A DNA stretch of 64,000 bases, taken from contig CP136069.1 in assembly GCA_032622095.1 (NCBI GenBank), positions 157,967,043 to 158,031,042 on the forward strand. Reading direction: 5' to 3'. Under the pieces are notes generated by a model that was given only the letters and a program-made list of their open reading frames with translations, was not told the origin of the DNA and did not search any database. Made by a program: the position numbers and the translations under genes. Shown here piece by piece: positions 1 to 38,547 of this stretch (within the stretch, counting starts at the first letter, position 1; each line of letters opens with the position of its first letter). Origin of the DNA: Siphonodentalium dalli (lineage: Eukaryota; Mollusca; Scaphopoda; Gadilida; Siphonodentaliidae).

Positions 1-1738
1 ATTTATCCTGGTTGTATTTAAATCTCCATTTTTTACTGTATGAGCTGCATAGGTCACACAAAGTTTGGAGACCAGAAAAAGTTAGAGACAAGAGAGTCAT
101 ATCGTCGGCTTGAGTTGGCGATGCGCAACACGCAGAACCGACGCGCAAACCATGGTGACTGTTTTCAAGTTGGAAAATTAGTTCATCGATGAAGATCATG
201 TAAAATAAGGGGGCGAGTAATATTCCTTGACGTGTTCCCTGTTGTATATCGACGTATCGCGAAATCGAATCATTAAATTGAACAGAGCATTTTATTCCAC
301 TTAAGAGAGAACTGATTATATGCCATATTTTACCAGTGAATCCACGTTGGTAGAGTTTGAGCAGGAGACCGTGAATCCAAACTGTGTCAAATGCTTTACG
401 GACATCTAAAAAACAAGCAAACAGTGGGCTATGATTTTCGGCCGTGAAGGCGATACTTTCCTGGATTATGAAGGACGACGTGAGGTAGCTAACCCCTTTT
501 TGAAATCCATGTTGCAGTGGGTGTACTTTGATGAGATCTGTTGAAAAGTTTTCAAGACGGTTCAAAATAATTTTCTCAAAATTTTTATATAAAACAGGGA
601 GCAATGTGATAGCACGATAACTATCAAATTGTTTTTTGGATTTATTGCCGCCTTTGAAGAGCGGTACCATAAGGCCTATTTTGGCTCGTGCTTGGACGTG
701 GTTGAGTTCAACCATTTTGGACATCAATGTTGCAACTGAGCTCTGCAGGCGCTCTCCACCATAAATTATATGTTCATAATATAAGGCGTCTAAACCAGGC
801 GCCTTGCCTTTCTTGGCATTTTGCAGTACATATTTTACTTCATCAATAGACACATTGAAACATAAATCTGCATCAATGTCGCTATACCCGTGCGACGAGC
901 GTATGTTCTCAATTTCCGCGTTAACATATGAAAAGTGTTTTTCGTCAAAATCGTTAGATTGTAATGGGGAATAGAGGTTCTCATAATAAGATGACCAAGC
1001 TTCAATTACCACCTGTGGGTCTCTAAGTGTGAAACCGTTTACTTCAAATAAACAGTTTGATGCGGTTTGCCGTTGAACTTTCCTTTTGTTGAAAGCCCTA
1101 TAAAAGCTGTTTATGTCAAGTTCGGCCATTTTGTCTAGCTTGTCATCCATTTCTTGGAGATAGAGCTCGTTCGATTTGCGGAATTGTGCACGAAATAGAC
1201 ATTTTGCGTCTTTGTATGCTCTATATGCAATGTGTGATTCCTCCCGTGGTCTCCCGGCAGATATCCACACTTGTCGCATTGATGCCATATTATGATGCAG
1301 TTCTTTTAAGGTATCATTCCAAAAAGGTCTGAGGTGGCGATTGAACCTCCTAGACGGTATGACTTGTTGTGTGGCATTTCTTATGACTGACACAATCTCG
1401 TCATAGTAGCTGTCAAGCTGATCTACGGTTTGAATGCATCGATCAGGTAAGTTGAAATTTATAATGATTGGTATGCGTTGATCAATACAGGGGATACACT
1501 AATGTGTTTCCAATTAACTTTTTTGTTTGCGGCAGGTGTTTTATTGGGGCATGAAATAGTGTCATAACAAATTTGTGCAAAGAGTGGGCGATGATTCGAC
1601 ACATTATTTTCTGAGTCATCTACGACCTCGAAGCGACCAATTCTGTGAAGTTCTGATGTGGGTATGATGATATGGTCGATTATAGTTCCTGGACCCCCAT
1701 TGGCAGGAATAAACGTTGACATGAGTTATAACAAAATT
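1..1738 (-). mobile_element. Non-LTR retrotransposon fragment: endonuclease end plus reverse transcriptase
   Basis: Read on the minus strand, 1722-1459 encodes the end of an APE-type endonuclease (GTIIDHIIIPTSE, then SNHRPLFAQI, the equivalent of the family's SDH motif). From about 1455 to the window edge a second long open frame gives the linker and reverse transcriptase: GKAPGLDALYYEH, then VPLFKGGNKSKKQFDSYRAI, LQHGFQKGV, FLDVRKAFDTVW, QQGTRQGILLAPLFY and the catalytic ADD at about 85-95. One frame break near 1450-1470 separates the two parts; the RT frame has no stop down to position 1. The arrangement is typical of LINE ORF2 in the Jockey/CR1 group, but the clade is not resolved. The 5' end is lost near 1740, consistent with 5' truncation. 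The 3' part lies outside the window. Confidence 0.9.
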
Positions 1739-6029: not shown

Positions 6030-6069
<40 letters not shown>

Positions 6070-18540: not shown

Positions 18541-18789
18541 ATAACCATTCAACATGTTTCGAATAAAAAACTTAGCCCAACTGGTGTTTAAAAAGAGAAA
18601 TCGACCAAAAATCGACAATAAATCTGCGTAAAAAGACGATGTTTTTATTTTGTGACCACGCCCCCTATTGACCAACCAATTGGGGACATTACTGCCACTA
18701 TTGTCGATTAATGTACGAAAATGGGCCATATAAGTAATTAACTGGTGCTATTCCCGCATAATTCACGCGAAAACAGCGTTTAAAAGGCT

Positions 18790-19945
18790 TTAAATTGCTT
18801 CACAAACTACAACATTATGGCATCAGAGGCCAGCTGCACAACTGGCTGAGCTCCTTCCTACAAAATCGGAAAATGAAGGTAGTAATCGACGGGAAACAAT
18901 CAGAGGAGGTACATGTAGAATCTGGAGTACCCCAAGGAAAAGTGCTAGGCCCATTGCTATTCCTATGTCATATCAACGACCTACCAAATGACATCGCCTC
19001 TAAAATCTGCCTCTTTGCAGACGACTGCCTATTATACCAAGAAATATCATCGTTTAAGGATCACCTCAAAATGCAGAAAGATTTAAACACACTGAACGAT
19101 TGGGCCAACACCTGGGGGATGAAGTTTAACACCAAGAAATGCCATATCCTATCAATCAAGAAAAAATCCAATTACTACTACACACTAAACAACGAGGTAC
19201 TCGCAGAGGTCAACGAACATCCGTACCTCGGAGTGACACTCACAAATAACATGGATTGGAGTTCCCAGATCAACAACATCTCGAGGAAAGCATCATACAC
19301 CCTTAGCTTCCTCCAACGAAACCTTAAGCACTGCTCAGAAGACCTACGCAAGCTAAGCTACATATCGCTAGTAAGATCAAGTATGGAATATGCAGATATA
19401 ATATGGGACCCATACGAAAAACGAAACATCGATAAACTTGAGAAAATCCAAAGAAGAGGAGCTCGTTTAATCAAAAAAGACTATAGAAGCAGATTTGAGG
19501 GTGCGGTCACAACATGCTAATTGACCTAAAATTCCAACCACTCGAGACCAGGAGGAAAACCAACAGGTTGACATTCTTGCACAAAGTAGTGGACGGGGCC
19601 TTCCCAGCCATTCCCCCCACAAAAGTATGCAAATACTCTCTAAAACGAGTTCGCAAGAAAAACAAACACCTGGAGGGATACGAAACATCCAAATTCCCTC
19701 AGCATCTCATACGAAACCACGAAAGATGCTTCGAACTCCCGCAAACAATAAACACGGAAGAATACAAACATTCAGTGTTTATTAGAGCAAAGATCGATTG
19801 GAACCAGCTGGACGGGAAATTCTTAGATAGCCTGGACTCTACATCATTCCAGGAGTATCTACAGGAAAACATCTAGCGCCTCCACACCCGTCGTAACACG
19901 CCAGAACTGGTTCCTACGACGTAACACTACAGATACAGATACAGA
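18790..19945 (+). mobile_element. LINE 3' fragment nested in the right transposon arm
   Basis: An open frame from 18790 to 19520 gives the second half of a LINE reverse transcriptase: KLQHYGIRGQLHNWLSSFL, VPQGKVLGPLLF, the catalytic FADD (about 19015) and YLGVTLTN, then LVRSSMEYADIIWDPY and QRRGARLI. A one-base loss at about 19510 shifts the frame; the next frame, 19514-19876, gives the family's C-terminus (LKFQPLETRRKTNRL and so on). The match is to Jockey/CR1-type elements. It is 5'-truncated, and its 3' end is a short (ATACAG)n tail at about 19928-19942. The arm sequence resumes at about 19945 (AATTCAAACCGCCAAGC), so the LINE inserted after the DNA transposon. Confidence 0.88.
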
Positions 19946-21327: not shown

Positions 21328-21971
21328 TCAACTCAATCGCCGGCGGATCATCATGGTCGACTCCATCATGGAATTCGTTCGAAAATTATTATACCATCTC
21401 ATCCCATATGTCCGCGGCAAAGTCGCGGTGGTATTTAGGTACTCTCCGTTCAAGCTACTTAATGAGCAGCATTTATACCACCAGGGGCCGGTCGTTCGTG
21501 TTGTACAAGAAGACAGACACCCACCCCATATATTAGGATTATCGTTTGTCCCGAATTGCATTCCGTCCACGTACGCCAGCGAGTCACCATCGTTGCCAGA
21601 GTAACCGGTCACGTGGATGGCGTAGTTGTTCTCCGATCCGTCAATACTGAATCTGGAGTAATGAGCAAAACCGTCTACGCCCCCTGCTGTTCTCAATTTA
21701 ACCATGAGTTCAGATGTCCCAGTCTGGGTCAGCTGGTGAATATTCTCCAGACCGAGCCAATAATTGCCATTGGTGGCGACATCGCCGAAACCACGTGTGT
21801 AGCTCAGCCAGTTGCGGTAGAATTCAACAGTGCCGTCGCGTCGTTGCTGGAAGACGGTCCAGCCCCCAAAACGTGTGGTCATGTCACACACGACTCTAAT
21901 GTTATTTCCATCCGGGTTGATCGTGTACACACCATCCGTGGATGAGCCAGCCTCTAAAATTGTCTTGAAAT
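21328..21971 (-). CDS. FReD gene, exon 4 (terminal): fibrinogen C-terminal domain
   Basis: This exon carries a complete fibrinogen-related domain, the carbohydrate- or acetyl-group-recognising module of ficolins, tachylectin-5 and invertebrate FREPs, so the protein is likely a secreted recognition lectin. Seen in order: ILEAGSSTDGVYTINPDG, VVCDMTTRFGGWTVFQQRR, EFYRNWLSYTRGFGDV, YWLGLENIHQLTQ, AHYSRFSIDG, VTGYSGNDGDSLAY, GTNDNPNIWGGC (calcium/Cys loop region), GPWWYKCC, LNGEYL and the closing GMRWYNNFRTN. Acceptor ACTTCCGCAG ends at 21972. The first two bases complete an Asp codon from the previous exon (phase 1), and the stop is TGA at 21330-21328. The usual first Cys (family start D-C-x-x-I-L) is Phe here (D-F-K-T-I-L). 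The frame runs open upstream to 22017, but that part is intronic by the splice signal. No frame damage. Confidence 0.9.
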
Positions 21972-23534: not shown

Positions 23535-23660
23535 ATGAGTTTTCATTTAAACATTGTTGGTGCCGTTGCGTCGTTGCTGGAAGATGGTCCGACCGACATA
23601 TTTACGACACTGACGGTGATGGGGTTGTGAGGGTACAAAGACTATATTTTGTGTAAAAAT
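23535..23660 (-). pseudogene. Degraded FReD exon fragment inside intron 3
   Basis: The plus-strand text GTCGTTGCTGGAAGATGGTC matches the functional exon 4 at 21837-21860. On the minus strand one frame reads VGRTIFQQRRNGTNNV and then a stop, corresponding to FGGWTVFQQRRDGTVEF of exon 4. The sequence on either side no longer aligns and has no splice sites. This is the remnant of a duplicated fibrinogen-domain exon in the same orientation, not a working exon. Confidence 0.7.
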
Positions 23661-25285
23661 CTCCCTCGAGGTAAATATAAATTCATTAAACAATATTTCT
23701 GTTGAATAGTTTGCTTCTGTAGATTTGTATTCGGGTTTGCGGTAAATTTATATCCTGAACCAACAACGGTAACCCAGTCAACGTTGGTGAACATTATACA
23801 CATATCTCATGTAAACACCACAACAGGTAAGTCCCCATCATATAATAACATGTATCTCCTGTGTTATTCATCCGATCACATTGTAATTTTGAACGAATTA
23901 GCACATGGAAATTCAGCACATTGTGAGAGTTTATTTGTTCTACCACCACTTGCAGCATGGTAAGATACATGTAGTAGTGATCATACAAGTTGAACGCATC
24001 TGACTGAATACTGTCATAACATTATTGCTGGAAATTTAACAGCTACAATTAGTAACCACACAATGAAAAAAAAACAGTCGACGTGACAGTGAACAGTTTG
24101 TCCGGTATTCAACGAACTTCGATTAGTCACCAATGACTAACTTTCGAAAAGTTGAGAGCAAAAACGCTATTGAAATAATTCGCTAAACATTGGTAAATGG
24201 TTAGATCTGGGATAACCGACGGACATCGATTGGGTCAATATTCCTGCTTCGTATGAACTGACATATTTTGTCCGTTGTCTGTTTTACGATGATAAACACA
24301 TTTCCGCATATTCTATACAAAAATTAGAAGTGTTGTGAAACTGGAGTAGAGAATTAAGAGGTGGATAAGACATATGGAAAGCGGCGAAGGAAAGCGACGA
24401 AGGGAAGAGGCAGGTTGAGTTATGGACGAGACGTGTTGCGAAACTGCTGTAGTGGGCGAGACACATCATTGAGAGCGAAGGGGGGGGGGGGAGAAGATGT
24501 TGGGCGTTTGCAAGGGTGATTATTGGCGAATGGGCCATGTCTTGTTGAATATGTCATTGTTGAATACCGTGCCCCGTAGCGCAATACATTGTATAACTAT
24601 ATGTATACGACTCCTTATGATGCCATTGCAGCAATTGCAGCAACACACTGCCATTATGCACTTAATGATGCAGTCATGGCTCCGAACCTATTGTGAGGAA
24701 ATCTACCATTGATGTCCAGATTAAGGCACGCAACATATTTCACAAATCGCATTTGACCAACCACCTTTTCCCCCAGAGAAGAACGCAACATCGCATTAAC
24801 CTGGATTTTACAATTTTTTGAAACTGGAGGTCCGAACCCATGAATATATTTGTTACTACTTTAACCACATAAACCTGATATAACCTTTTCTATTCAGCAC
24901 TATAATCTCTTTACTATATTTTAATGAGAGCAAACCAACACGGGGAGAGGATTATCAATAATTGCATAACTTGTACTCCACCCCCTGTAGCCATTCCACA
25001 TGTATAACTATATATTATAGTGTACGAATCAACTACATATGCATGGTACAATACATAATTTATGTTACTACGAATACCACCGCAGCCTAGCTATGCCTTG
25101 GACACATGGCCGTAATGACGGGGGGGGGGGGGGGGTCAATTTTGGTAAAACATTTTCAAACGTTGGAAGTTTCATGCCTGACAGACAGAATATAAGTTGT
25201 AAATATTACATCACAGCTTGAAAATGTTCTGTTTGATTTGGAATAAGTAACTTGCATATGCAATATGATAACTTTCAGATGCATG
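23661..25285. other. Intron 3, no exon recognised
   Basis: Apart from 12 G at 24480-24491 and 16 G at 25120-25135, I see no structured feature. Small frames here have no family features. Confidence 0.5.
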
Positions 25286-25289
25286 TTAA

Positions 25290-25568
25290 TATTTTGCACG
25301 TGCTAGTTAGCTTCAACGCAGAAGCTTCAACGCAGAGAATAATTATTTATTAACTTGCATCTGCGATTTAGCTATCCTGCACCTGTAATTTACTATATTG
25401 CACCTGCAGTTATTATCTTACACCTGCAAGTTATTATCTTGCAACCTGCAAGTTAGTATATTACACATGCAAGTTAGTATATTGCACCTGCAAGTTAGCT
25501 ATATTGCACCTGCAATTTAGCCATCTTGCACCCGAGTGCAAGTTACTATATTGCATCTGCAATACATT
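25290..25568. repeat. 22-bp satellite array i (TTGCACCTGCAAGTTAGCTA orientation)
   Basis: About eleven imperfect units of TTGCACCTGCAAGTTAGTAT type. The unit contains the self-complementary core TTGCASSTGCAA. Opposite orientation to array ii. Confidence 0.85.
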
Positions 25569-25675
25569 CGACCCCCCACCCATCGGAAACATGAATTATA
25601 AAAAATGCTATTCATTTTAGTCCATTCCAAAGTTTATAAACGAGGTATTACTCGTATTACTCCTAAGAGAGCTGA
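25569..25675. repeat. Single copy of the GGAAACATGAATTATTAAAA repeat
   Basis: CCCACCCATCGGAAACATGA through ACGAGGTATTACTCGTATTA is a copy of the unit that is tandemly repeated at 28065-28435. It is the spacer between inverted arrays i and ii. Confidence 0.8.
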
Positions 25676-26100
25676 CTTGCAGGTGCAAGATAGTTAACTT
25701 GCAGATGCAAGATAGTTAACTTGCAGGTGCACGATAGCTAACTTGCATGTTCACTATATCTAACTTGCATGTTCACTATATCTAACTTGCATGTTCACGA
25801 TATCTAACTTGCAGGTGCAAGATAGCTAACTTGCAGGTGCAAATTAGCTAACTTACAGGTGCAAGATAGCTATCATGCATGTTTGGGTTCCGGTACTTCT
25901 CTTCCCTATCTCCCGACGTCGGCGCGTTTATACAACCATATATAGCTAACTTGCAGGCGCAATATAACAAACTTGCAGCTGCAAGTTATTAGCCGACTTG
26001 CATTTGCAAGATAATAACTTGCACCTGCAAGTATTTTGCAGGAGCAAGTAAGTTATCTTTCAGGTGCAAGTTAGTTATCCTGCATGATTGTGCATGTTAA
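25676..26100. repeat. 22-bp satellite arrays ii and iii (inverted relative to i)
   Basis: AACTTGCAGGTGCAAGATAG units at 25676-25880, then a break with unique sequence, then a mixed-orientation stretch at 25940-26095 (AACTTGCACCTGCAAG and CAGGTGCAAGTTAG both occur). Confidence 0.85.
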
Positions 26101-26570
26101 TAAATAAATTTTCTTGGCGCTAAACCAGCCACCGCACATCTTGAAAACAAAATGATGCAGTTATATTCTACTCGATGTACAGTTTCGTGATGATGGCATT
26201 ATATATACGTGCACGCGTATCTGATATAATGGACGATTAAGAACTGAAACTATCATCAGATACAAGACTTTTGCGAAATTGTTTTGCCAGTTTGGCATTC
26301 GAGCAGCACAGTGTGCGAATTTAAAGTGCGCGAATTGAAAACCGATCGAACATTGTACTGCGCGAAATTAAAACGATTAAGGTATTGTAAATTAAAGAAG
26401 GAAGCACACTATCACCACAATGTACGTATAATTGTATATAATGTTATTTGATAACTGTAGAATGTTAGAACACCATAGTCAATACAATACTACAATGACG
26501 CTACTACGACAAAGGACACTGCGCATTGGTATTTAACAACGGTGGTATGTCAGCTGCAACATAAACAGTA
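26101..26570. other. Intron 3 segment, nothing recognised
   Basis: Unique-looking AT-rich sequence between the satellite arrays and the duplicated exon block. Confidence 0.5.
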
Positions 26571-26919
26571 GAATAATATAGTCTACTATTCCAAAAGACA
26601 CCAGTACCTACAACGCACCAACTGTAACATGGTAGAGTACCCCAGTACAGTTATATGGTACCATGGTAGTACCATGCTAAATATCAGTTTACGGTCGTTC
26701 ACTAGTTGCTTTTATATGGGTGGACCTGATAACTAATTACGGGCTTCAAAATGGCCGATGACAAATTTGGCCACGGACATCGAGTACAATATATCTCATA
26801 CACGATACTGAATGATGTAATAGTCTTACCGTGAGTTGGAGATAGTGCGCTAGGTTCTGGCGTAGATGGAGTCATAGGTTCTGGCGTGGATGGATTCCGA
26901 CTTTGCAGCAGTTGTCCAT
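26571..26919. repeat. Duplicated exon block, copy 1
   Basis: AATATAGTCTACTATTCCAA through the exon-3 sequence is a direct copy of 29272-29680: about 350 bp, including intron text (TGGTACCATGGTAGTACCAT), the splice donor and exon coding sequence. Confidence 0.88.
26830..26919 (-). CDS. FReD gene, exon 3: short Pro/Ser/Thr-rich linker
   Basis: A 90-nt exon coding a 30-residue linker, DGQLLQSRNPSTPEPMTPST and so on, ending SALSPTH. The acceptor TTATTATCTTGCAG lies just above 26919 and the donor ACG|GTAAGAC just below 26830. Phase 1 at both ends, so including or skipping it keeps the frame. It is a partial copy of the 3' third of exon 2 (same CAACTGCTGCAAAGTC and ACTCACG|GTAAGAC) with an internal 24-base duplication that yields two STPEP motifs. 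Its acceptor falls in the first unit of satellite array iv rather than in sequence shared with exon 2. It probably acts as a flexible, possibly O-glycosylated hinge before the FReD. Splicing is inferred, not observed. Confidence 0.7.
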
Positions 26920-27340
26920 CTGCAAGATAATAAATGCAAGTTAATATTTTGCATGTCCAGTTAGAATATTGCATCAGCATGTTATTATCTTGCAACAGCA
27001 AGTTGGCTTGAACGACAAGAATATTTATGTATTAATTTGCACCCGCAATTTAGCTATCTTGCACATGCAAGTTATATATTGCGCCTACAATTTATTATCT
27101 TGCGCCTGCAAGATATTACCTTGCGTTTACAAGTTATCTTGCGCCTGCAAGTTATTGACGTGTGTCTGCAAGTTATTATCTTACACCTGCAGGTTATTAA
27201 CTTACACATGCAAGTTATTATCTTACACATGCAAGTTATTATCTTACACATGCAAGTTATTATCTTCCACCAGCAAGTTATCTATCTGCAAAGTTATTAT
27301 ATTGCACCTGCAATCTAGATATCGTGCACCTGCAAGTTAC
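26920..27340. repeat. 22-bp satellite array iv (exon 3 acceptor side)
   Basis: About eighteen units of TTACACATGCAAGTTATTAT type on plus; on the minus (sense) strand they read GATAATAACTTGCAGGTGCA. Translations of the array (CKLLSYTCKLLSYT and the like) are repeat artefacts. The unit nearest exon 3 provides its CAG acceptor. Confidence 0.88.
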
Positions 27341-28064
27341 GAATGACTCATAATATAGGCTACAGTCACCGATTTGGCAAAAGGGGTGGTAGGGGTCAGT
27401 ACGAATATAGAGAACTTTTGGGAATTCAAGTGGGTTTCGCTGGTCTTTTCGTACTATCTGCTAGTATTTTGGCGAGTGGGTGCAGGATTTGTGTTCTGGA
27501 CCTTCTATTCTCAATCTCGCTATTGCCCCCCCCCCCCCCGTGTCGAAATGGGTCGATAAATAAATGGAAATGCCTTTATACGGACATTATACGTCCCCGA
27601 AAGACGCATATAGAAGTCAAGAAAAATACGTTGAACGCGGTGTTTGGTCCCAAACAAACCACAGCCATGTACACGGCATGAAACAGAAAAGACCGTTACT
27701 TGTTAGTCTATTCATAATATTGTAGAAATAACGATCATTTGTTTCATTTCTGTGAAATTTAAAGAATCTGGAAAATGGATGTGACCATGGTAAGTATTTT
27801 TCAGAGCACATGAAGCCGGTATATCAATATTTCGTGTGTTTGTCAACCTATTGTATGACTCCTTCCAAATTACGTAGACCACATTTGGACGCTCGAATGA
27901 GCCATGCGTTTGAGCAATTGGACAATTCAAATGGAGAAACTCCACAACCACCAGGACATAAAACCCATACGTCTTTTCACCAACAGATTGGGATAAGTTA
28001 CCACACAAAAAAATCACTGAAACGTTTTTGTAAACAATTCCAAAAATATGACTTTTTCTGATTC
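27341..28064. other. Intron 2 segment, nothing recognised
   Basis: Contains a run of 14 C at about 27526. Short frames on both strands lack family features or splice-site support. Confidence 0.5.
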
Positions 28065-28435
28065 TGAAACAAAACGCTCTGCATTGGCCCGTCCTCTTCT
28101 CATTTCATGAACGAGGTACTATTCCGTATGAATTTCAACACTCATATAATTATCAGATTCTTAGATTATATCCACGGTTTCCACTGAACTATACCCACCC
28201 CTTGGAAACATGAATTATTCCGAGCCCAAAATGATCTGCATTGCACCACCCACTTCAAGAACGAGGTACTATTCCTTATAATCGGCGACACTCATCAGTA
28301 TCAGGCTGCGAGATGGTCCCCACTACATTCGCCCACCCGTCGGAAACATGAATTATTAAAAAATGCTCTTCATTGTCCAGTCCACACGGAAGTTTATGAA
28401 CGAGGTATTATTCCTCTTATTCCTAGATAAGAACT
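28065..28435. repeat. Tandem repeat, about 130-bp unit, three copies
   Basis: Units share GGAAACATGAATTATT, a CATTG-CC-GTCC block and GAACGAGGTACTATTCCTTA. A fourth copy sits at 25569-25675 between satellite arrays i and ii. Confidence 0.8.
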
Positions 28436-28837
28436 TTCACGTCCAAAATAACTTGCCTTGTCCGACCCACTGGTTAAACAATTATCATGGTTCTCCGCTG
28501 GCCTCATCCACATATCCATATTCCACATGCTTGTACTTTACATACCATATCATAAACTGAGCGATGAACGGTGAACGACAAACGAATTATACTAGTATTT
28601 ATTAAAAAAAACAGACATTTATATACCAATGTTTAAAGTTAACAAGACAAAACCTAGATAAATTAAAATTATTATTACATGTATAGTTATATTACTTTTC
28701 AACGGGGACGGCAGGTAGACAACCTTCTTGGTTATGCTGTCCCCGATAGCTCATTGAATGTTATACTATTACACTGTGTATATAATTGTATATATCATAT
28801 GAATGAGTTATGAATAAATAATCATAGTCATAGTCAT

Positions 28838-29271
28838 AGCTACTTGCAGGTGCAAGATAGTTAACTTGCAGGTGCACACAACTAACTTGCAGGTGCAAGA
28901 TAGCTAACATACAGGTGCAATATAGCTAACCTGCAGGTGCAAGATAGCTAACACGCAGGTGCAAGATAGCTAACATGCAGGTGCAAGATAGCTAACATGC
29001 ATGTGCAAGATAGCTAACATGCATGTGCAAGATAGCTAACATGCATGTGCAAGATAGCTAACCTGCATGTGCAAGATAGCTAACCTGCAGGTGCAATATA
29101 GCCAACATGCAGGTGCAATATAGATAACCTGCAGGTGTAATACAGCTAACCTGCAGGTGCAAGATAGCTAACATGCATGTGCGAGATAGCCAACATGCAT
29201 GTGCAATATAGCTAACCTGCATGTGCAATATAGCTAACATGCAGGTGCAAGATGGCTAACCTGCAGGTTAA
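28838..29271. repeat. 22-bp satellite array v
   Basis: About nineteen units of GCAAGATAGCTAACATGCAG with GTGCAATATAGC variants, in the orientation opposite to array iv. The right end joins directly to the duplicated exon block at 29272. Confidence 0.92.
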
Positions 29272-29690
29272 TATAGTCTACTATTCCAAAAGACTCCTGT
29301 CCTTACAACCGCAATAACTGTAACTTGGTAGAGTACCATAGTGTAGTTCAATGGTACCATGGTGGTACCATGCTAAATATCAGTTTACTGTCGTTTACTA
29401 GTTGTTTTATATGGGAGTACTTGATAACTAGTTAAGGGCTTCATGCATGGATGGTTGATGATAATTTGAGAGGTGATTGCTGAATATAGCCTTGAAACTT
29501 GTTGGCCAAAAAGTTTGGTGAAATTTCCTTTGCTCCGCTCATTTTCCAAAAGCAAAATGGCCGATGTGAACTATGTACCTAATCCACGAAACTGAATGAT
29601 GCAATGGTCTTACCGTGAGTTTGATATAGTGGGCTAGGTTCTGTCACGGATGGATTCAGACTTTGCAGCAGTTGCTTCACAACTTCACAG
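29272..29690. repeat. Duplicated exon block, copy 2
   Basis: Direct copy of 26571-26919, extending into exon 2. The left boundary coincides with the end of satellite array v. Confidence 0.85.
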
Positions 29691-29892
29691 AAATTCCCAA
29701 ACTGGTCTGATATAGTTTGGGCATGGGACCTAACTCGGTCGAGATCCAATCTTGTGTTCCTTATGCTCTTGACCAATTCCTGAAGACCCCGGCGTACCAC
29801 GTTACCATCTCCTTGTTCAGTTTGTCGCTCATGCGCCAGGCAAGTCTTGATAATCTTCCGAGATCCCCGCAGTGGACGAGGAAGCCTCGGCT
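29614..29892 (-). CDS. FReD gene, exon 2: coiled-coil linker
   Basis: A 279-nt exon with acceptor CCTTTGACAG above 29892 and donor ACG|GTAAGAC below 29614, phase 1 at both ends. It encodes about 93 residues: a basic start (KPRLPRPLRGSRKIIKTC), then heptad-like hydrophobics (GLQELVKSIRNTRLDLDRVR, SDQFGNFCEVVKQLLQSL) that suggest a coiled coil for chain assembly, as in other fibrinogen-domain proteins, and a Pro/Ser end (NPSVTEPSPLYQTH). Two Cys could make interchain bonds. The 3' third is duplicated as exon 3. An hAT-like element lies immediately upstream, leaving only 18 nt of original intron plus the 8-bp target copy before the exon. No database family is recognised for this segment. Confidence 0.72.
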
Positions 29893-29910: not shown

Positions 29911-30181
29911 GTTATTAGCAAGCCTTGAAATACTGTGCCTGTCATTTGCAGAATGAGGTCCCCAGAGGGTGAATTTAGTGATGCTAACCCCGCATAGTGG
30001 GCTAGCATCACCAAATTCACCCTCTGGGGACCTCATTCTGCTTACACCTCAGCAGAATGAGGTTCCCAGCGGGTGAATTTGGTGATGCTAGCCCGCTATG
30101 TGGGGTAGCATCACTAAATTCACCCTCTGTGGACCTCATTCTGCAAATGACAAACACACTATTTCAAGGCTTGGTTATTAG
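29911..30181. mobile_element. hAT-like foldback MITE with nested palindromes
   Basis: A 255-bp element (29919-30173) between perfect 8-bp direct repeats GTTATTAG (29911-29918 and 30174-30181). Ends are inverted CAAGCCTTGAAATA. An 8-bp duplication is typical of hAT transposons. The whole element is one palindrome (about 125-base arms), and each half is itself a palindrome of about 93 bases built on GCAGAATGAGGTCC and GGGTGAATTTAGTGATGCTA. Confidence 0.9.
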
Positions 30182-33806: not shown

Positions 33807-34188
33807 TGCCAAAGAAGTGCTCATCGTAACGGTTGATTTTTGCTATATGTGCAGCAACGTCCGCGAAGTATATCTCCATATCCCCGCACATATCACCAAA
33901 CAATTCCCCGGCTCTCTTTAGATAGTAGCCATCGTTTGGGTCGATGCTGGAGTACTCCGATTTTACATTGTCGACCAGATCATCGATCGTTCGTCGGTAG
34001 TTGTTAACTTCTGGTTCCTCTGTATCGTTTCGCGCCTGCGCACAAGCTTCAATCAGTAGCACCACCGGTTCGATGTGAGATGCGCTGAATAAGTCGCTGA
34101 GACTGCGAATCATCTGCAGATCCACCCCAATCTCAGCTTGCGAGGCTGCGACCAATAAAACGAGGAACACTGCTCTGATCATCTCCAT
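33807..34188 (-). CDS. FReD gene, exon 1: signal peptide and novel N-terminal region
   Basis: From ATG at 34188 the frame gives a clear secretory signal, MEMIRAVFLVLLVAASQA, with likely cleavage after SQA, then about 109 residues, acidic and largely helical in appearance (VDLQMIRSLSDLFSASHIEP, RRTIDDLVDNVKSEY, AGELFGDMCGDMEIYFADVA), with two Cys. The exon ends in a strong donor, GGCA|GTGAGT, at 33807, phase 1, matching the phase of exon 2; the frame would stop two codons into the intron. A second Met at codon 3 is possible. CCCAATTCAG just before the ATG could be an acceptor, so a 5' UTR exon may lie further up. I do not recognise the domain. Joining it to the FReD exons rests on strand, phase and the lack of a competing partner. 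Confidence 0.68.
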
Positions 34189-34345: not shown

Positions 34346-34474
34346 GCACCTAATTAACGAACCGGTGGTCGACTCGGTCGTCTCCGACCACATGAACCCA
34401 TTTCACTGTTCAAAGTTAATGAGCCTTTGACTGGTTCTGTAACATCCGAAAATACAAGCTGTGGCTTCAACAAG

Positions 34475-36870
34475 ATGAATAATGCAAATTATCACAATCC
34501 TTTTAACGAATCCGCTTATAACTGCGATTCCCCAGCTAGTAGTGGTACCACGAATCCAATGCATATGGTATCCGATATTCTGACTAAAACACGTCAGCTT
34601 CTTGATTACCATTCAGACGTGGAATACATAGAGTCCCCAAAACTTGAACGTCCACACGTGAACGAGTTGCATGCACATGTACGTGACACTGTTAGTTATT
34701 CATCTGTCTATGCATTATGTGATGATGACTATTTTGAATCTGCAAATAATTTATTGTCCGGAGATCATGTAGTAGAAAATACGGCACATCATATTAACCC
34801 ATATCTAACGAAACTCTCCGATAACTCGCATATACATTCTAACCCAGATTCTAAAATGCACGACTATGAAGCCACTTATGCTAGGATAAAAAACTATGCA
34901 ACAACAACACCGTCAAATACGACTACTAGTATGTACTTACCATACCTAACAGACTGCGATGAAAATAATCTCCAAACTCAGAACATAAACAAGGGAAGTG
35001 AATTTATATCTCGCCCGATAAACTTAGACATACAAGGTATCACCACCGCCATCACCCCTGAATACATCTCGAATACAGCCAACATACACAATGGCATTTC
35101 GATATTGACACTAAATGTATGTGGATTGCGCAAAAAGCTTCTATGTCTGGAGTTCCAAGAGTACTGTAAACAGTTTGACATACTGTGTTTCTTGGATACA
35201 AAAACAGACGACTGTGACACTATTGAACTAGACGAATTTAATTTCTTTATGAAAAATAGAACAAAATTATCTAGAATAAGATCCGGTGGCATTGTTCTTG
35301 GAATTAATGCAAGAATACAACAACACGCGAATGTGATAGCGACAGATTGCCCATTTGTTCACTGGGTTGAACTTAACCAGCACCATAGTTCGAATAATAA
35401 CAAACTTGTTATTGGGGCCATATATATTCCACCAGAAGGTAGTAAATATACTTCCCCCAATGCGCTGGAACAGATCAGTGTAGAGTATCGATCGCTGAGC
35501 CACCGCTTTAACACGGACACATTTCTTTTAACCGGCGACTTCAACGCCCGGACCGCATCAGACGACGATTTTATTGAAGATGAACATGATCAGAACTCAG
35601 ATTATGACATGTACCTCCTAGCCAATTCAGAATTCTCTAAAACGCGACAAAACACAGATAGAATCAAAAATAGTTTCGGACGCTCTCTTTTAGATTTTTG
35701 TAAACACATATGCAGCGAATTTTTCATTATAAACGGTAGATTCGGTGTCGATAAAAACAAAGGTTCACTTACATGTTGCGATGCATCAACTATTGACTAT
35801 TCTGTCTGTTCCGCTCCACTTTTGCATATGATTAAAGATTTCGAGGTAGATAAGTTTAATTATCTTTTCAGTGATGTGCACTGCCCGATAATAACTAGAT
35901 TAAACCTAACACTGACCCAAACATCTGAGCCAAATGATACACACACAAATATAAACCAAACCACGCGAGTCAAACGGTGGGACATTAGCAAGGCTTCAGA
36001 GTTCATAGCATCGATCAATTGGAGCACCATGACAAAATTAAAAAACGAACTGAAATCTGTTTCACCACAGAACATTACAAAATCGGATATAAATTACATT
36101 GTTAACGGAATATCCGAATTAATGACCGACTCAGCAAGATATACTTTTGGCACATATACAACCACTAAAGTTAAGGTAAACAGACGCAGAAATGGTGGAA
36201 ATAAACCTTGGTTTGATGGTACCTGCAGAGACGCGCGTAAAACATACCGAAAAGCTAGACGCGTTGATGCTGCAATAAGTACCGATTCCTCAAAATCACG
36301 ATTAAGACTAGCTGCGAGAGAATACAAGCGTGCGGTCAACCGAGCAATGAGAATCCACAGAGAGAATATATCACGGGAAGTTTCAAAGTTGAAATACGAA
36401 AACCCGAAACAATTTTGGAAGAAAATCGGTAGTGGTCGGAAAACGACGACTACACCGATCAGCCTTGAATCGTTATATATTTATTTTAAAAATCTGAATG
36501 CGTTTGAGCACAGCGAAGATGGGACATTCCTCCAACCAATTAACCTCAACTCTGATGAGGATAACACAGAGCTCAATAAACCAATTAATGAAGAAGAAAT
36601 AAAGTCTGCTATCCGAAGTCTTAGAAATAATAAATCGTGTGGGGAAGATGAAGTATTAAATGAATATATCCGTGCATCAGCCGGAAGTATCATTGATATT
36701 CTAGTTTGCCTGTTCAACCTTATATTAGACACAGGTTACATACCCGATTCGTGGACTATTGGAACGATTGTACCGATTTATAAAAATAAGGGAGATAAGT
36801 CAGACCCAAAAAATTATAGGCCAATAACAATTTTAAGTTGTTTTGGAAAGGTTTTTTTACCAAAGTATTG
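34475..36870 (+). CDS. LINE polyprotein part 1: N-terminal region, endonuclease, start of RT
   Basis: The open frame begins after a stop at 34352. The first in-frame ATG is 34475 (798 codons); the frame is open above it but without ATG. Residues up to about 205 are polar and unrecognised. An apurinic-type endonuclease follows: ILTLNVCGLRKKLL, FLDTKTDD (usual E replaced by D), GAIYIPPEGS, LLTGDFNARTA, TIDYSVCSAPL and FSDVHCPII. This domain nicks the target DNA for target-primed reverse transcription. Then comes a basic connector (GGNKPWFDGTCRDARKTYRK) and the first RT blocks (SLRNNKSCGEDEVLNEYI, GTIVPIYKNKGDKSDPKNYR). The frame ends with TGA at 36869, right after a T7 run that shifts it off the rest of the RT. 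Confidence 0.88.
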
Positions 36871-38547
36871 ACGATTCGTCTAACAGACTTCACAACAAAG
36901 AACGGTATTATGTCTGAAACACAAGCAGGATTCAGACATGGCTATTCAACGTTAGATAACATATTTGCAATACACTTATTGGCCAAAATGACAGGAATGC
37001 TGAAAACAAGACTTTATTGCGCATTCATAGATTTCGAAAAAGCGTTCGATAAAGTTTGGAGAAAAGGCCTTTGGCATAAATTGATAAAATCTAGAATAAC
37101 TGGAAAAACTCTCAGAGTAATAACTAATCTGTATAATGATATCAAGTCGTGCGTGCAACACCAAGGTGCTAAATCCCAATATTTTGAGTGCCTCTCAGGG
37201 GTTAGACAGGGCGAAAACCTCTCACCCCTTCTTTTTTCCATCTACCTTAATGACCTGGACACTTTTCTCGCCGAACAAGGCACGAAAGGTCTTCGTACCA
37301 TCTCAGATGAAATTTCCGCGAAACTACACACATATGTTCAATTATTTGTCCTTCTATACGCAGACGACACAGTAGTTATGGCAGAGACAGCGGGAAAACT
37401 GAAAAAGCAGCTTTTATCATTTGAAAGATATTGTGATATCTGGAAATTAACAGTAAACGCAGACAAAACAAAAATTGTAATGTTCTCTAAACACGGTTTA
37501 CCAAAAAATGCACAATTTAAACTCGATGGTAAAAGTATCGAAGTGGTTAAAAACTTCAATTATCTCGGAATTATTCTCTCGAAGACGGGAAAATTTGGAG
37601 AAGCCAAGAAAAATTTGGCTTCTAAAGGCATGAAAGCAATGTACTCTGTTATATCGAAAGCCCGTAAACACTGCTTGAGTATAAAAAACCAATTCGAATT
37701 ATTTGATGCACAAGTAGTGCCAGTACTCCTCTATGGGTGTGAGGTGTGGGGCCATGAAAATTGTGCTATTATTGAGAATGTTCACCGACAATTTATGAAG
37801 CACTTATTGCGACTAAAACCTTCGACGGCTGACTACATGGTTTATGCAGAAACTGGCCGAATGCCATTAGAAATTTTAATTAAAACACGAATGATTAAAT
37901 ATTGGTGTAGAGTAGTTAACATGGATGAAAAGCGATATTCTAAAGTACTATATCAGTTATCACGCACGTTATCAGACGATTCAAATCACATCAGTTGGCT
38001 GAGTTCCATTCGTCACACCTTAGAGTCATGCTCCCAAGCTCATATATTTGATAGCGACATTGCGACAAATGTAGACCAACTTATCGAGTACGTGAAATGT
38101 AGTCTGATTAGCAAATTCAGATCGAACTGGGAAGCAGATCTGCAAAAATCTAGCCGGGGGAAAATATATCAGATATTCAAACATGATATCTCATATGAAA
38201 GCTATCTAGACACTCCAAATGAATTTAATAGAACGATATTATGTAAATTTAGAACATCAAATCACCATTTGCCAGTGGAAACCGGTCGCTGGAATGGTAC
38301 AGATCTAAGGGAACGAACATGCCCGCTATGTAGATATAACAGACTAGGAGACGAATTCCATTACCTATTTGAATGTGAAGCGCTTGAGCGCGAGAGAAAA
38401 TGTCATATATCAAAAGAATACCTGAATAGACCAAACATTACAACAATGGATGAACTTCTCAATGTACAAAACCCATGCCAAATACGGCGTCTATGCAAAT
38501 TTATACATACCATTTTTAAGAGGTTCGACGAAAATCCGCCTGGTTGA
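36838..38547 (+). CDS. LINE polyprotein part 2: RT catalytic core, thumb, zinc knuckle
   Basis: In the -1 frame relative to part 1, and intact to TGA at 38547. It continues the RT without gap: ETQAGFRHGYSTLDNIFAIH, CAFIDFEKAFDKVWRKGLWH, GVRQGENLSPLLFSIYLNDL, then the catalytic LYADDTVVMAE (about 37355), NYLGIILSKTGKF, VVPVLLYGCEVWG and TGRMPLEILIKTRM. The C-terminus has a Cys-Cys-His-Cys knuckle, CPLCRYNRLGDEFHYLFEC (about 38320-38377). It probably uses no start of its own; it is the rest of the same protein. All catalytic residues are present, so the element is young or recently mobile apart from the single frame break. Clade not resolved. Confidence 0.9.
   Translation: MFWKGFFTKVLTIRLTDFTTKNGIMSETQAGFRHGYSTLDNIFAIHLLAKMTGMLKTRLYCAFIDFEKAFDKVWRKGLWHKLIKSRITGKTLRVITNLYNDIKSCVQHQGAKSQYFECLSGVRQGENLSPLLFSIYLNDLDTFLAEQGTKGLRTISDEISAKLHTYVQLFVLLYADDTVVMAETAGKLKKQLLSFERYCDIWKLTVNADKTKIVMFSKHGLPKNAQFKLDGKSIEVVKNFNYLGIILSKTGKFGEAKKNLASKGMKAMYSVISKARKHCLSIKNQFELFDAQVVPVLLYGCEVWGHENCAIIENVHRQFMKHLLRLKPSTADYMVYAETGRMPLEILIKTRMIKYWCRVVNMDEKRYSKVLYQLSRTLSDDSNHISWLSSIRHTLESCSQAHIFDSDIATNVDQLIEYVKCSLISKFRSNWEADLQKSSRGKIYQIFKHDISYESYLDTPNEFNRTILCKFRTSNHHLPVETGRWNGTDLRERTCPLCRYNRLGDEFHYLFECEALERERKCHISKEYLNRPNITTMDELLNVQNPCQIRRLCKFIHTIFKRFDENPPG

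Follow-up and report, generated by a model that had tools for sequence, protein, structure and literature searches.

Gene parts at the locus

The window, by which we mean the whole 64,000-nucleotide stretch of DNA analysed here, corresponds to C9:157967043–158031042 of a 2.23-Gb genome in 9 contigs. Its minus strand carries two coding exons, a putative third one, and an exon encoding a FReD, a fibrinogen C domain that scores 170 bits against a Pfam cut-off of 22 (Table 1). For exons 1 and 2, Pfam gives no family at E 0.01; exon 1 reads as a signal peptide followed by a helical N-terminus. A crude signal-peptide scan of the minus strand between 22.0 and 35.0 kb gave two hits, exon 1 and a 47-residue frame just upstream of the FReD exon, of which exon 1 appears to be the only convincing signal-peptide start on this strand of the interval. 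A four-exon FReD gene of an immune-lectin-like kind is plausible because of this hit and because phase 1 is possible at all junctions (GGCA/GTGAGT, CACG/GTAAGA, GCAG/ATGG, CACG/GTAAGA, and CGCAG/ATTTC).

Table 1. Features of the window discussed in the text; slashes mark exon–intron boundaries
Feature	Position	Strand	Basis or detail
Exon 1, coding part from ATG	33807–34188	minus	sequence; phase-1 donor GGCA/GTGAGT
Exon 2, 279 bp, phase 1-1	29614–29892	minus	sequence; donor CACG/GTAAGA
Putative exon 3, 90 bp, phase 1-1, truncated copy of exon 2's end	26830–26919	minus	sequence and alignment
Candidate 3′ splice site TATTAACTTGCATTTATTATCTTGCAG	26920–26946	minus	branch-point-like TATTAAC without intervening AG; 8.3 bits
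FReD exon (PF00147)	21328–21971	minus	Pfam E 8.8e-50; phase-1 acceptor TTTACTTCCGCAG/ATTTCAAG
Duplicated segment X1 (exon 3 and the intron after it)	26574–26914		alignment
Duplicated segment X2 (end of exon 2 and the following intron)	29269–29674		alignment
Element 2, transposon fragment between X1 and X2	26920–29275		TRF, element comparison
Element 2, outer satellite units			
Element 2, inner motif	~27004–27040		
Element 2, array A	to 27339		
Element 2, spacer	27340–28835		
Element 2, array B	28836–29268		
Element 1, second element copy	25243–26134		arrays in both orientations
AATATAG, common to array B units and the duplicated segment	29270–29276		direct reading

All 22 candidate relatives of exons 1 and 2 were scored, and the close paralogues lie at C4:117.05M, C4:117.00M, and C5:168.13M, with 81–83% protein identity in exon 1. 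Between the window copy and these three, dN/dS is 0.17–0.22 for exon 1 and 0.21–0.25 for exon 2; for the FReD exon it is 0.24 against the nearest relative, a 74% match at C9:36.45M. With dN/dS thus at 0.17–0.25 throughout, exons 1, 2, and the FReD exon are constrained.

Several further observations concern the surroundings of these exons. The FReD family of this genome is very large, with 677 first-look candidates, of which 150 were scored and all 150 exceeded the Pfam cut-off. A short FReD remnant, KYVGRTIFQQRRNGT (23559–23603, minus strand; protein E 0.2–0.4), lies between the FReD exon and exon 3, and the nearest FReD relative shares 84% identity over 43 bp with DNA close to it. A 256-bp palindromic repeat at 29919–30173, 91% identical to its own reverse complement, ends 27 bp upstream of the first base of exon 2, and a related copy is found in intron 1 of the C5 paralogue. 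Long frames at 34358–38544 (plus), 18762–19873 (plus), and 2–1498 (minus) presumably encode LINE endonuclease and reverse transcriptase, as which they read to us. Distant exon 1 relatives (~35%), each with a long tandemly repeated frame, occur in two very similar stretches, C6:57763600–57783599 and C6:55796900–55816899; neither of these 20-kb stretches, which represent two of the three weak C6 hits, contains a FReD match.

A local duplication joined to a satellite-bearing transposon

X1 and X2 are homologous in the same orientation, from CAACTGCTGC in the exon, across the donor, and into the intron. Identity is 87% between 26574–26748 and 29269–29443, an intron divergence of ~13%, and 82% between 26786–26874 and 29570–29658; the segments differ in length by ~90 bp of intron. 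From 26914 downward, exon 3 shares homology with the 3′ end of exon 2, including the donor, CACG/GTAAGA in both, which bears out the original prediction that exon 3 is a truncated copy of the end of exon 2. The predicted phase 1-1 holds as well, with the open frame DGQLLQSRNPSTPEPMTPSTPEPSALSPTH. The local segmental duplication is mostly intron, and exon 3 is its exon end. Exon 3 also carries an internal 24-bp duplication, and its first five bases, ATGGA, do not come from exon 2; since satellite units elsewhere read TTGCAGATG, the ATG at its start may be satellite-derived too.

The duplication breakpoint runs through an interspersed repeat of ~310 bp (26383–26693) that has many copies in the genome: at least 56 matches were found with 40 of 212 candidates scored, nearly all of them in the first 149 bases of the query. 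This repeat is continuous across 26574, the start of X1, but cut at 29269 in X2, which gives the order of events and marks X1 as the copy continuous with the old intron. Among the best 40 of 212 candidates, no copy of exon 3 was found other than exon 2 itself. At the junction, the shared AATATAG is a possible microhomology.

Arrays of 21–22-bp units were found by TRF at 25355–25562, 25665–25879, 27030–27339, and 28836–29268, with smaller ones at 25940–26084, and satellite-like units extend from the array at 27030–27339 to the edge of exon 3. Satellite arrays occur on all 9 contigs, with at least 104 matches after scoring 40 of 216 candidates. Ten of these loci, chosen for good scores and mostly with several matches, were examined closely, and all ten contain runs of at least two units in both orientations. 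Portions of the spacer's first 180 bp (27348–27519) likewise recur in all ten, and a 37–50-bp end motif is present in nine, being absent from L024. Terminal repeats like CGGTGGCTGGTTAGCGCCAAG are found, with small variants, in L040, L042, L043, L044, and L045, and in reverse at window position 26134, where the right terminal repeat of element 1 ends in ...CCAGCCACCG. The 20-base terminal repeat pattern GGTGGCTGGTTAGCGCCAAG has 43 sites at two or fewer mismatches, as against 0 for a reversed-pattern control, and by our own count these sites include 4 facing pairs within 3 kb. TA stands on both flanks of L029, the one complete copy read. Because the arrays are dispersed, occur in both orientations, and are accompanied by facing terminal repeats, the satellite is part of a dispersed DNA transposon family with foldback-like satellite arms, and the idea of an independent minisatellite was rejected. 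Precise insertion with a long target-site duplication was also considered and rejected, since element 2 lacks terminal inverted repeats on both sides.

The segment 26900–27060 has 29 other matches. Four of these start at 26917–26921, i.e. at the exon edge (C3:184526681 and C5:200600355, and more weakly C1:258616494 and C7:125599220), and thereby place the splice site in element-derived sequence, as in transposon exonisation; in the other 25, similarity starts only at 26932 or later. The satellite units are much alike, which leaves the exact end of the element soft. Within this softness of the satellite alignments, element-like sequence appears to meet the exon copy at the acceptor.

The candidate acceptor and the possible use of exon 3

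Acceptors were scored at 6037 AGs on both strands with a metazoan matrix not trained on this species. The matrix separates poorly, because the acceptor of exon 2 itself scores only 3.3 bits (86.5th percentile). On this scale the site at 26919 reaches 8.3 bits, the 99.1st percentile, and the FReD acceptor 9.0 bits, the 99.5th. The branch-point-like TATTAAC lies ~22 bases upstream of the 26919 acceptor, with no AG between. The bases preceding exon 3 are TTATTATCTTGCAG on the gene strand, in an orientation opposite to that of the adjacent array A, which reads GATAATAACTTGCAGGTGCAA on the same strand; this opposite orientation probably makes the acceptor unit T-rich. The claim that the exon edge is bounded by a unit of the satellite thus holds in that satellite-like DNA ends in TTATTATCTTGCAG there, but equating this unit with those of the adjacent array mixes strands.

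The arrays had further been proposed to form a ladder of potential acceptors. On the gene strand, AGs of at least 5 bits number 1 of 22 in array A (26920–27345), 1 of 22 and 1 of 33 in the arrays of element 1, and 7 of 26 in array B, between exons 2 and 3; outside the arrays they number 349 of 5815, or 2.8 per kb per strand. The ladder was therefore rejected for array A, fails in three of the four arrays including this adjacent one, and survives in array B, where two sites (29150 and 28930, 9.1 bits each) are stronger than that at 26919.

Four other element copies were compared at the position aligned with 26919. L040 has GATATTAACTTGCTCATGATTATCTTGCAG, at 8.8 bits; L024 has a CAG at 5.5 bits, preceded by an insertion of seven bases; and an AG is missing there from two of the four, L038 and L041. 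Since the L040 site, the one close case among the four copies, is equally good, the acceptor motif may have come with the element and be older than the rearrangement.

In gene order, exon 2 and the X2 start of its intron are followed by the transposon fragment and then by X1, a truncated exon 2 end with the same intron start. One rearrangement would have duplicated ~0.35–0.4 kb and put ~2.35 kb of transposon at the junction, most simply through a repair template switch guided by microhomology between the arrays and the duplicated segment; a series of separate events would fit as well. The copied piece of exon would have kept its frame and donor but not its acceptor. At its end, the transposon fragment has a satellite unit that, on the gene strand, resembles a good 3′ splice site (TATTAAC, T-rich tract, CAG), and with it the piece could serve as a 30-codon cassette exon that preserves the reading frame. 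Observed in this account are the duplication itself, the satellite's membership of a transposon, and the sequence and score of the splice site; for the joint origin as a whole, in which duplication, transposon junction, and acceptor-like site belong together, we estimate a probability of about 0.7.

Whether exon 3 is used is a separate matter. It may be a dead by-product, a pseudo-exon fragment of a long intron that is always skipped while exons 1 and 2 join the FReD exon directly, as phase 1 allows, and we regard this outcome as slightly better than an even bet. Over 60 bases, exons 2 and 3 show 7 differences, all nonsynonymous, or 8 with one synonymous, according to which half of the 24-bp duplication is disregarded; over so short a comparison, divergence is about that of the intron (13%) and no constraint is visible, though 60 bases give little power. 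In a neutral simulation at 0.072 substitutions per site (substitutions only, no indels), the frame and splice dinucleotides survived with a frequency of 0.65, and none of the three paralogues of exons 1 and 2 searched contains a copy of exon 3. Against the by-product reading, a pseudo-exon scan for acceptors of at least 8.27 bits with donors of at least 7/9 at 50–250 bp, a threshold set by exon 3 itself, found 17 acceptor–donor pairs in the window, of which 7 were symmetric and one, exon 3, was both symmetric and open. Chance pairs of this quality are not rare, however, since 30 first-order Markov sequences gave a mean of 0.33 per window. At lower thresholds symmetric open pairs are about as common as in random sequence (3 observed vs 1.2 at 7 bits, 4 vs 2.3 at 6, 5 vs 4.1 at 5, and 9 vs 8.3 at 3.3 bits, the score of exon 2), which again favours a by-product. 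True exonisation, in which the satellite unit would provide the acceptor and exon 3 a 30-residue Ser/Thr/Pro-rich linker ahead of the FReD, is possible but falls short of probable, and steady inclusion of exon 3 in transcripts is to be held just as tentatively. The 8.3-bit site, the conserved donor, and the equally good site in L040 speak for it; the competing acceptors of array B and the lack of visible purifying selection over the 60 bases speak against. The original observation is partly confirmed, and its interpretation as exonisation driven by a minisatellite is supported in part: satellite-derived DNA does provide a strong-looking 3′ splice site at the cut edge, but exon 3 owes its body, frame, and donor to the segmental duplication of a real exon, the satellite is a fragment of a transposon, the adjacent array is no ladder, and coding constraint is not seen. 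Exon 3 is thus best described as a truncated exon copy with a potential, transposon-supplied acceptor, its exonisation unproven.

Independently of both these readings, the four-exon model could itself be wrong, with exons 1 and 2 representing the duplicated 5′ end of a gene of the TSP1/EGF/IgGFc-binding type and the FReD belonging to another transcript. No FReD was found near the three paralogues in 28-kb stretches reaching 26–27 kb downstream of exon 1 (best E 2.5, chance level). Same-strand frames there instead contain TSP1 (C4b and C5), EGF-like (C4a and C4b), and IgGFc_binding (C5) domains; Pfam assignments cover the C5 frames only, and the other domains were assigned by similarity or reading. 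Likewise, the nearest FReD relative, at C9:36.45M, has no match to exon 1 or 2 within 17.9 kb upstream, and by our own reading is preceded by a different exon, which we take to be PAN-like. On the other side, no TSP1, EGF-like, or IgGFc_binding domain was found in the window (best E 0.8), exon 1 is the one convincing signal-peptide start of the crude scan, and exons 1 and 2 are still constrained. We consider this alternative unlikely. Because exons 1 and 2 of the paralogues precede exons of these other types and not a FReD, the host gene may be a chimaera that combines an N-terminal module and a FReD of different families, or else two unrelated pieces; the arrangement suggests domain shuffling of exons 1 and 2 with a FReD in the window.

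Significance and known parallels

If exon 3 is spliced, the locus would be a clean case of a repeat-bearing transposon that, at the break of an exon copy, replaces the acceptor that the break removed. Such a case would illustrate a way in which cassette exons can arise from exon fragments in genomes rich in satellites. A skipped exon 3 would be a useful warning that a splice site at a duplication edge may look strong without making an exon. With regard to the large FReD family of this genome, the host gene, possibly a chimaera, deserves attention in its own right. More broadly, a foldback-like transposon family might carry a ready-made branch point and CAG acceptor in its near-end satellite units, such that rearrangements at the arrays could truncate host exons and supply what is left of them with a working acceptor. 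Breakage of satellite transposons would then be one way in which an expanded immune gene family gains new cassette exons; we put this forward as a conjecture that is, on present grounds, improbable.

Partial tandem exon duplication is a known kind of event. Here too homology runs from exon into intron in one orientation, and the truncated copy retains a duplicated donor and intron start; the difference is the 2.35-kb transposon fragment at the junction. A search of titles and the beginnings of abstracts found no minisatellite-derived acceptor at a duplicated exon.

The Foldback/Galileo elements of Drosophila are outlined as DNA transposons with long, internally repetitive inverted repeats and structurally variable copies (PMC3573991). 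The present family shares internally repetitive inverted repeats and copies that vary in structure; terminal inverted repeats with internal tandem arrays are found in the family, not in element 2. The likeness is one of structure alone, and the flanks here are TA (L029). The Cg_HINE elements of the Pacific oyster are described as satellite-carrying, non-autonomous Helentrons whose arrays form central repeats (PMC7492417). In both cases a mobile element spreads short satellite-like arrays through a genome, but here terminal inverted repeats enclose arrays of both orientations. Finally, mobile-element sequence acting as a splice site is of a general kind already known, for example from the transposon-derived exon that AluSz6 provides in ACTR8 (PMC7275561). 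As there, a mobile element offers a splice site, here a candidate one; in contrast, a host exon is the source of the exon body at this locus, and the element would have contributed no more than the acceptor and five bases.
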